A stretch of DNA of 32,927 bases, taken from NCBI GenBank assembly GCA_028684955.1, contig JAQUEY010000013.1, forward strand, positions 1 through 32,927. Reading direction: 5' to 3'. Every line of letters begins with the position of its first letter. Position 1 is the stretch's first letter. Below the pieces are notes generated by a model. The model was not told the DNA's origin. It saw only the letters and a list, made by a program, of their open reading frames with translations, and did no database searches. The DNA is from Eubacteriales bacterium. Lineage in GTDB: Bacteria; Bacillota; Clostridia; Saccharofermentanales; UBA5734. This document shows, in pieces, positions 21,751 to 24,162 of the stretch. The position numbers were made by a program, and so were the translations under genes.

Positions 21751-22821
21751 ATGAAAAAAACTGCATTGATCCTGATCACTGCTGTTGTCCTGCTCGCTTT
21801 TGCCCTGACCGCTTGCGGCCAGACTGCAACCACAGCGGCAACAACCGCCGCCACCGCCGAAACGACCGCCGCTGCTGCTGAGACTTCTGCTGCTGCTTCC
21901 GGGCTGCGCCTGGGCTTTGGCTCTGTCGTCACCGCCAGCAAAAGTGCCAGCGTCACTGCCGAAAAAGAAGGCATCGCTGAGTCCTACTCGTACTATGCTG
22001 CCGTCCTGATCGACGCCGACAGCAAGATCCAGAAAGTCTGGATTGACTCCGTTGTTCATCGTGGCAACTTTGACGCCACCGGCGCCCTCACCTCTGACAT
22101 CGCAGCGCTTGGCGCCACCAAGCGTGAGCTCGGTGATGCCTACGGCATGAAGAAGGCTTCCCCGATCGGCAAGGAATGGTGGGAACAGGCTGATGCCCTC
22201 GAAGCTTATTTCGTTGGCAAAACAGTCGCAGACATTGACGCAGCTGCCCGCGAAGGCGAGAAGAACATCTTTGTCGACCTCAAGACTTCCTCCACCTTCG
22301 GCCCTGACCATTACGTCGAAGCTCTGAAGAAAGCTGTCGCTGCTGCCGAAAAGGCCACCCCGACCGCAGCCACCAAGCTCGGTTACGGCGCCTCCATCAA
22401 TGCTGCCAAAAGCGCCAATGCCGCTGCTGACAAGGACGGCAAGTTCCAGTCCTACAACAGCATGGCCATCGCTGCCATCGACGACGCTGGCAAAGTCCAA
22501 GACGTCTGGGTCGATGCTGTCGTCCATGACATCACCTTCAACGCCAAAGGCGAACTGACCTCTGATGCCACTGCCCTCGGTGCCACCAAGCGCGAGCTTG
22601 GCGATGCCTATGGCATGAAGAAAGCCTCCGCCATCGGCAAAGAGTGGTGGGAACAGGCTGATGCCCTCGAAGCTTACCTCGAAGGCAAAACCATGGCCGA
22701 AATCGAAAGTGCTGCCCGCGAAGGTGACAAGAACATCTTCGTCGACCTCAAGACATCTTCCACCTTTGGCCCTGACCACTACATCGAAGCTCTGGAAAAA
22801 GCCGTCACCAACGCCCAGTAA
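21751..22821 (+). CDS. lipoprotein with two 156-residue repeats, possible flavin carrier
   Basis: A 21-residue signal peptide ends in the lipobox L19-T-A-C22, so the mature 335-residue protein is anchored outside the membrane. An Ala/Thr-rich linker (about 25-50) leads to two tandem repeats offset by 156 residues. Each holds GATKRELGDAYGMKKAS (starting at 121 and 277), KEWWEQADALEAY and VDLKTSSTFGPDHY (starting at 175 and 331). The last motif resembles the end of FMN-binding domains, where D-x-x-S-G-A-T carries FMN on the Thr; T182 and T338 fall at the matching place, but the motif reads TSST. The next gene is apbE, whose product attaches FMN to such Thr residues. This suggests extracytoplasmic redox work, not proven. 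AGAGGAG precedes the ATG at 21751; a longer frame from 21715 is not used. Confidence 0.8.
   Translation: MKKTALILITAVVLLAFALTACGQTATTAATTAATAETTAAAAETSAAASGLRLGFGSVVTASKSASVTAEKEGIAESYSYYAAVLIDADSKIQKVWIDSVVHRGNFDATGALTSDIAALGATKRELGDAYGMKKASPIGKEWWEQADALEAYFVGKTVADIDAAAREGEKNIFVDLKTSSTFGPDHYVEALKKAVAAAEKATPTAATKLGYGASINAAKSANAAADKDGKFQSYNSMAIAAIDDAGKVQDVWVDAVVHDITFNAKGELTSDATALGATKRELGDAYGMKKASAIGKEWWEQADALEAYLEGKTMAEIESAAREGDKNIFVDLKTSSTFGPDHYIEALEKAVTNAQ
21901..22815 (+). repeat. tandem duplication inside the lipoprotein gene (period 468 bp)
   Basis: Two copies are offset by exactly 468 bp (156 codons). Similarity is clear at the protein level throughout. At DNA level the stretch around GAACAGGCTGATGCCCTCGA (22183 and 22651) is identical for more than 20 bases. 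No frame change occurs, so the repeat is an internal gene duplication. Confidence 0.9.
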
Positions 22822-22867
22822 CACCGTCCCGTTTCACTTGAAGAATTTTCTTTGCTGACTACAATGA

Positions 22868-22892
22868 GAGGGGGTGCACACCGCACCCCCTC
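22868..22892 (+). terminator. intrinsic terminator after the repeat lipoprotein gene
   Basis: A 10-bp perfect stem, GAGGGGGTGC (22868-22877) with GCACCCCCTC (22883-22892), and a 5-nt loop are followed by a T-rich tail, ATTCTTTACC. It lies 46 bp after the stop. It would separate the lipoprotein transcript from apbE, unless read-through occurs. Confidence 0.8.
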
Positions 22893-22953
22893 ATTCTTTA
22901 CCTTGGTGAAACCATCCGGATCAACTGCAGAAAAGCCCTTGATTCAACAGTAA

Positions 22954-24162
22954 ATGAGTATGCAATCAATGATGAAAAATAACACACATCTTTCTTTTTC
23001 AGCACGTCTATCCGTCATCATCGTGGTCTTGACAGCTCTCGTGCTGACCAGCTGCACGTCTTCACAAGCATCCACATCTTCTTCTGGTTCTGTGGCTCCA
23101 GAAAGCCAGACCACCTCGCCAGCCTCTTTAGACGCACCGGTCAAATACTCCAGTTCATTTACATCGAGCTTTGATACCGTGATCACATTGATCGGATACG
23201 CCAACGACCAGGCAGAGTTTGACCACTGGGCTGATCTGGCTGAATCAGAATTCCAAAAGCTCCACCAGCTATTTGATATCTACCACGAGTATCCCGGCAT
23301 CAACAACCTGATGTCGGTCAACCGTCAGGCAGGTAAAGGCCCGGTCCGGGTCGATACCCAGATCCTGGACTTGATTGAATTCTACCTGGTCAATGACCAA
23401 CTGGCCCCTGGCCTGGTCAGTCCATCTCTCGGATCAGTCCTGTCAGTCTGGCACGATCATCGTGAAGCGGCAGAATCAGGCCAGGCCACCGTTCCAAATC
23501 CAGTCGATTTGCAGGCAGCCGCCGAACACATCGATCCAGCCTCCTTGAAAATCGATCGCCAGGCTTCGACACTAGAGTTGACGGATCCACTGGTCCGGCT
23601 TGATGTGGGTGCTGTCGCCAAAGGCTATGCGACTGAAATTGTTGCCCAACTCCTGAAAGAGCAGGGTATGACCTCAGGCATTATCAGCGCCGGTGGCAGC
23701 AATGTCCGGCTGATCGGCAAACCGGCAGACCCAGCCCGGGAAACCTGGGCGATCGGTATCCAGAATCCCTTTGTGTCCATGCTGATCCCGGAAGGACAAT
23801 CGGTGGATGTCATCCTGGCCAATGAGACCTCCATAGTCACCAGCGGTGACTATCAACGCTATTACCTGGTCGATGGCGCAATCTACCACCACTTGATCGA
23901 CCCGAAAACACTAATGCCCGCCAACCACCAGCGCGCTGTCACCATCGTCACTCCTGACAGTGGTCTGGCCGACTATCTTTCCACAGCTGTGTTTTTGATG
24001 CCCTATGAGGACGGGCGTCAACTCGTTGAGAGCCTGCCCGACTGTGAAGCGCTCTGGATCTTCCAGGATGGTTCGATGCAGGCAACCGATGGGCTGCTGG
24101 CACGCTTGAAAGACAAGGCCAACGGCAATGCCAAAGATATGGCAGAGGCACTGGCCAAGTAA
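22954..24162 (+). CDS. apbE: ApbE-family FAD:protein FMN transferase (lipoprotein)
   Basis: ApbE moves FMN from FAD onto a Thr of target proteins outside the membrane. The protein is 402 residues. A hydrophobic signal ends in lipobox L31-T-S-C34, then a Ser/Thr-rich linker. The catalytic domain has DVGAVAKGYATE (217-228), GGSN (247-250), HLIDP (313-317) and the Mg-binding D340/T344 in ADYLSTAVF. All key residues seem present, so it should be active. The start is unclear: ATGs at 22954, 22960, 22969 and 22972 are in frame and none has a good ribosome binding site. It follows the repeat lipoprotein, the likely substrate, by 132 bp with a terminator between. Confidence 0.95.
   Translation: MSMQSMMKNNTHLSFSARLSVIIVVLTALVLTSCTSSQASTSSSGSVAPESQTTSPASLDAPVKYSSSFTSSFDTVITLIGYANDQAEFDHWADLAESEFQKLHQLFDIYHEYPGINNLMSVNRQAGKGPVRVDTQILDLIEFYLVNDQLAPGLVSPSLGSVLSVWHDHREAAESGQATVPNPVDLQAAAEHIDPASLKIDRQASTLELTDPLVRLDVGAVAKGYATEIVAQLLKEQGMTSGIISAGGSNVRLIGKPADPARETWAIGIQNPFVSMLIPEGQSVDVILANETSIVTSGDYQRYYLVDGAIYHHLIDPKTLMPANHQRAVTIVTPDSGLADYLSTAVFLMPYEDGRQLVESLPDCEALWIFQDGSMQATDGLLARLKDKANGNAKDMAEALAK

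Follow-up and report, generated by a model that had tools for sequence, protein, structure and literature searches.

The window, a 32,927-nt stretch of contig JAQUEY010000013.1 from a Eubacteriales bacterium, encodes beside apbE a two-domain lipoprotein that is quite probably a PplA-like flavinylated electron carrier, from a divergent branch of the FMN_bind superfamily with a non-SGAT attachment site. In the mechanism that we propose, the neighbouring ApbE would cleave exported FAD and attach FMN by a phosphoester to T182 and T338, yielding an extracellular electron carrier that is anchored in the membrane and bears two flavins. Electrons would then follow a PplA-like route from NADH via Ndh2 and demethylmenaquinone to the flavins of the lipoprotein and onward to extracellular or cell-wall acceptors. 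If true, this broadens the set of proteins open to modification by ApbE, fills the place of the missing flavin carrier in Clostridial ndh2/eet operons, and offers two ApbE lineages that can readily be compared to learn how the enzyme chooses its targets.

The two-domain lipoprotein gene and the adjoining apbE

The lipoprotein gene, encoding 356 aa (21751..22821, forward strand, as for all features of the window below), carries the lipobox LTAC (21805..21816), read from the sequence, with Cys22 as the lipidated residue. Profile boundaries placed domain 1 at residues 50–196 (21898..22338; AlphaFold pLDDT 95) and domain 2 at residues 206–352 (22366..22806). The repeat period of 156 residues (468 nt) corresponds to a 147-residue domain and a short linker. 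Protein identity between the domains is 66.7%, and a 300-nt core of the repeat shows 78% DNA identity. Each domain contains an EWWEQ segment, which starts the first helix of domain 1 (22174..22188) and recurs in domain 2 (22642..22656), and each reaches the motif DLKTSST, at residues 176–182 (22276..22296) and 332–338 (22744..22764), respectively, whose final residues T182 and T338 are the predicted FMN attachment sites. An earlier note on this DNA had described two 156-residue repeats with D-L-K-T-S-S-T and a Thr six residues after the Asp in each, and we confirmed the coordinates, reading frames and residues. Comparison with the gene of a congener (L034) revealed 76 synonymous and only 16 non-synonymous codon differences, indicating that the lipoprotein gene is real and conserved.

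The downstream gene (22954..24162, 402 aa) encodes an FAD:protein FMN transferase, which matches PF02424 over its full length (E=5.5e-61) and has its own lipobox, LTSC, so that the neighbour is, as had been proposed from the sequence, an intact ApbE that is also a lipoprotein. A search of the genome found this ApbE to be the only one. The intergenic region forms a strong 10-bp GC-rich hairpin (22868..22892), with −23.1 kcal/mol and z=−4.4 for the surrounding 56-nt stretch and a weak T tail. This hairpin is a candidate partial terminator or stabiliser, which may lower apbE expression relative to that of its substrate and thus keep the carrier in excess over the enzyme.

The lipoprotein family and its electron-transfer operons

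We searched for the family in the loci of relatives and in 391 genomes of the class. The domain is present in many Clostridia, with strong matches in 41 of the 391 sampled genomes. Surveys of flavin-based electron transfer, in which ApbE sites are recognised by PF04205 and [ST]GA[ST], would not see the family, and the available parts of these surveys do not mention it (PMC8238504, PMC11334425). The number of domain copies per protein is one (for example, L117 and L144), two (the window, L120 and L122) or six (L137). The six-domain protein of 985 aa (L137:1303-4257), in which every motif reads DL-x-A-S-V-T and which is followed by apbE, is a candidate six-flavin wire.

Neighbours within seven genes of the lipoprotein were counted, with representatives identified by Pfam, and these comprised an NDH-2-type dehydrogenase (ndh2) at 20 loci, a polyprenyl synthase at 17, Hpre_diP_synt_I/EetB at 16, UbiA at 14 and NusG_II/EetA at 12. 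A second set of loci added six more with ndh2 on the same strand, bringing the total to over 20. The order ndh2, polyprenyl synthase, UbiA, eetA, eetB, lipoprotein, apbE is intact at L038, L122, L123 and L135, and many family loci contain the FLEET gene set, that is, ndh2, quinone-synthesis genes, eetA, eetB and apbE together. The Listeria EET locus likewise includes Ndh2 and quinone genes, each with a role in the electron route. In that locus, the protein that receives the flavin is PplA, and export of FAD for the ApbE protein FmnB is aided by EetB (PMC9973259). Like PplA, members of the family are lipoproteins, two flavin sites being predicted in the window protein, and many of their operons likewise bring together ndh2, genes of quinone synthesis, eetA, eetB and an ApbE. 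The family differs from PplA in its motif and in its one to six domains; moreover, PplA was shown experimentally to be a substrate of FmnB (PMC9973259), whereas flavinylation of the lipoprotein family is predicted.

The window genome has its ndh2, polyprenyl synthase and UbiA genes in a cluster on a separate contig (C232), which makes the electron route less certain there. Neither eetA nor eetB was found in this assembly of 270 contigs; both genes are present in four of four congeners. Of the possible functions, a PplA-like role has the best support, and we hold it with reasonable confidence for the family and with less for the window genome. A different reading, which we regard as the lesser possibility, is that the protein is flavinylated but works outside extracellular respiration, delivering electrons to a specific envelope enzyme or to iron uptake, or exchanging them with Rnf. 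Such a role would agree with the association of Clostridial eetA/eetB with Rnf as well (PMC9973259) and with the lack of ndh2 or eet genes adjoining the pair in the window genome and in several families (for example, L125, L129, L132 and L136); it is less readily reconciled with the more than 20 loci that combine ndh2 and quinone genes in the operon of the lipoprotein, or with the ndh2, polyprenyl synthase and UbiA cluster of the window genome. We retain the PplA-like reading, under which members of the family probably serve electron export in many anaerobic Clostridia.

Predicted flavin attachment and the probable partner ApbE

Motif conservation was counted over 97 domains: a first set contributed the 77 that extend as far as the motif, and a second set contributed 20. 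The columns read D/E, L, x, S/T/A, S/K/T/L, V/A/S and T/S, with D/E at the first position and Thr or Ser six residues later in all 97 domains (77/77 and 20/20), which rules out a chance motif. The conservation of a hydroxyl residue at this position, on which the proposal of the earlier note depended, thus holds throughout. The GA dipeptide occurs in none of the 97 domains, so that the usual D-x-x-[ST]-G-A-[ST] pattern of ApbE substrates is absent from the family. Gly at the fifth motif position (+4) was found in three domains (once in L021, twice in L289), and Lys or Leu occupies the Gly position in some members. Neither Pfam nor NCBIfam has a model that matches the lipoprotein, in agreement with the suggestion that standard searches could miss a motif devoid of GA.

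Some tolerance within the motif is documented: in a tested substrate, the Gly-to-Ala and Ala-to-Val changes each left about 50% of flavinylation, and Asp-to-Ala changed it little (review PMC12052999, citing Bertsova 2019). In the crystal structure of SaFMN3-D2, the motif Gly gives a backbone amide to the phosphate (PMC10339131), a contribution through the backbone that makes Ser at this position plausible. We found no tested ApbE substrate in the literature that is devoid of both Gly and Ala, and a literature search on non-canonical flavinylation motifs returned nothing relevant. The partner ApbE lineage would accordingly be one that tolerates a motif with neither residue. Substrates outside FMN_bind (DUF2271, DUF3570, Flavodoxin_4 and FMN_red) were likewise found or supported by apbE linkage, as far as the available parts of the surveys go (PMC8238504, PMC11334425); in the same parts, DUF2271 retains an [ST]GA[ST] site, which the lipoprotein family does not.

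Linkage was scored at loci picked by the lipoprotein domain and not by apbE. An apbE gene lies directly 3′ on the same strand at 52 of 56 testable loci (41/45 in the first set and 11/11 more), the four others being L039, where the domain is truncated, L141, L148 and L154. Among the sampled genomes, ApbE is encoded in 41/41 of those with the family versus 245/350 of the others (p=1.2e-6, phylogeny ignored). The co-occurrence of repeat and apbE across genomes, put forward in the earlier note as a check, is therefore strong, and the family combines export, through its lipobox, with apbE in the same locus. Adjacency alone is no proof that ApbE acts on the lipoprotein, since the single ApbE of the window genome also has canonical targets there, FMN_bind and RnfD.

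These canonical targets bear on a second alternative, in which the family descends from FMN_bind but has lost the covalent flavin and binds flavin non-covalently or holds another ligand, the adjoining ApbE serving other proteins such as Rnf. The missing GA dipeptide and a negative Foldseek search (described below) are also in its favour. We consider it improbable, because a hydroxyl residue kept at +6 in every domain would not be expected after such a loss, because apbE adjoins the family at nearly all loci, and because of the genome G081, a complete genome in one contig. G081 encodes one ApbE, directly after a two-domain lipoprotein in a full operon, and contains neither FMN_bind (E up to 0.05) nor NqrB/RnfD. 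Ten DNA matches of the D-x-x-[ST]-G-A-T type occur in this genome, none of them in a flavoprotein-like protein: they fall in carbohydrate-binding modules, a lipase, transporters, EF-P and similar proteins. This orphan-ApbE argument extends to FMN_bind, NqrB/RnfD and D-x-x-[ST]-G-A-T sites, and not to SGAS sites, Flavodoxin_4, FMN_red or DUF2271. We thus favour covalent attachment, and T182 and T338 are likely to be flavinylated.

A phylogeny of the enzymes pointed in the same direction. Four genomes (G252, G291, G341 and G112) encode a second ApbE beside a canonical FMN_bind gene, and these second ApbEs are separated from the ApbEs beside the lipoprotein family by a branch with 100/100 support. 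A clade made up of family-adjoining ApbEs alone was rejected, as ApbEs from genomes that do not have the family share it; the lineage is associated with the lipoprotein family but not exclusive to it. We lean towards the broader reading that the family is an undescribed branch of covalent flavoproteins (D/E-L-x-S-S-V-T), which has an adapted ApbE lineage, replaces PplA in the EET of many Clostridia and shows GA to be dispensable.

In genomes of the same taxonomic order, eetA-eetB-apbE triads with an ApbE of the same lineage, and with neither the lipoprotein family nor FMN_bind adjoining, occur at L256:7081-9222, L259:263-2341, L260:7192-9222, L261:7581-9790 and L266:7333-9656, where the substrate may belong to another unseen class. 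In genus g31 (L117, L286:8175-10412, L287 and L288), apbE is followed in the same operon by X141, an uncharacterised membrane-like protein of ~115 aa, and by a protein of metallo-beta-lactamase fold.

Relationship of the repeat domain to FMN_bind

Membership of the lipoprotein in the FMN_bind superfamily, as a divergent branch, is close to certain. The window protein does not pass the gathering cut-off of PF04205 in a Pfam scan, and this model reached E<=0.1 in three of 35 family members, with a best value of 0.0045. A domain profile compared with the PDB matched 2kzx, an FMN_bind protein of solved structure, at E=2.6e-6, the Thr falling in register with that of SGAT; 8p2b, a crystallised flavinylated domain, was matched weakly (E=0.53), its SGAT Thr again aligned. 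Alignment by hhalign of the repeat-domain profile (A1) to those of other families placed the Thr in the same register each time: a bridge family (A4) was matched over the full length at 7e-20, the 2kzx family (A3) at 1.6e-10, a third family with SGAT (A5) at 9.6e-8, and canonical FMN_bind from relatives (A2) at 7e-4. The profile-profile comparison thus upholds the relationship with FMN_bind that had been suspected from motif spacing. A phmmer search of the PDB with the single lipoprotein as query returned a lysozyme as its sole match, which was rejected as due to chance; it took the domain profile to reveal the link.

The motif itself changes stepwise across relatives. The bridge family contains DVVSGAT, DVVAGAT, DVTSSAT and DVTTSAT; the variants among relatives include DLKTSST, DLKTSVT, DLKAGVT, DVTSSAT and DVVSGAT, and one alignment connects DLKTSST with DVVSGAT and DDISGAT as a series. 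One polypeptide (L110) combines a Pfam FMN_bind domain (9.4e-14) with two bridge domains. That the resemblance to FMN_bind is due to chance and the repeat an unrelated lipoprotein domain, as its position below every Pfam cut-off (best FMN_bind E=0.0045 in any member) and the unrelated folds heading the Foldseek results might suggest, is largely refuted by this motif series and by several independent in-register profile matches, one of them to a solved FMN_bind protein. At L110:1073-2707, the canonical motif reads VDGVAGAT and the bridge motif DVTSSAT, and no apbE was seen in the fetched stretch. Single-domain relatives from the 2kzx family, each adjoining apbE (L103, L104 and L109), have DAIAGVT, DAVAGVT or DTIAGVT in place of SGAT, which is another departure from the canonical motif.

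Compared with the FMN_bind (PF04205) structures 2kzx, 3o6u, SaFMN3-D2 (8p2a) and CbFMN4-D1 (8p2b), the in-register homology covers the second half of the domain. The predicted order of elements in the family, three strands followed by helix, motif and helix, agrees with theirs, with the Thr at D+6 ahead of the last helix, and both groups are extracytoplasmic and adjoin apbE. The family differs in its motif, D-L-x-S-S-V-T against D-x-x-[ST]-G-A-T, and in a longer domain with the additional segments TKxELGDxYGM and EWxEQ, and it falls below the Pfam cut-off.

The AlphaFold model of the domain (pLDDT 95) contains three long strands, a helix at 94–105, the motif and, at 137–146, the final helix, which is the order of elements expected for FMN-binding domains (PMC10339131). 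The 50 best Foldseek matches of this model included no FMN-binding domain, the best being unrelated folds. In a control search, a 2kzx-family model recovered both 2kzx and 3o6u, whereas SaFMN3-D2 came up at E=0.066 only, and with a control of such weak sensitivity the negative result is weak evidence against the relationship and no refutation.

Conservation was assessed over 78 aligned domains in 43 effective clusters. D50, K75, Y82, W94, G107 and K108 of the domain are invariant and Q97 is conserved at 99%, the most conserved stretches being EWxEQ and the motif. The EWWEQ segments of the window protein contain this Trp (100%) and Gln. Placement by the SaFMN3-D2 and CbFMN4-D1 structures (PMC10339131) would put the segment of domain 1 on the side of the flavin pocket, where W94 and Q97 may contact the flavin.
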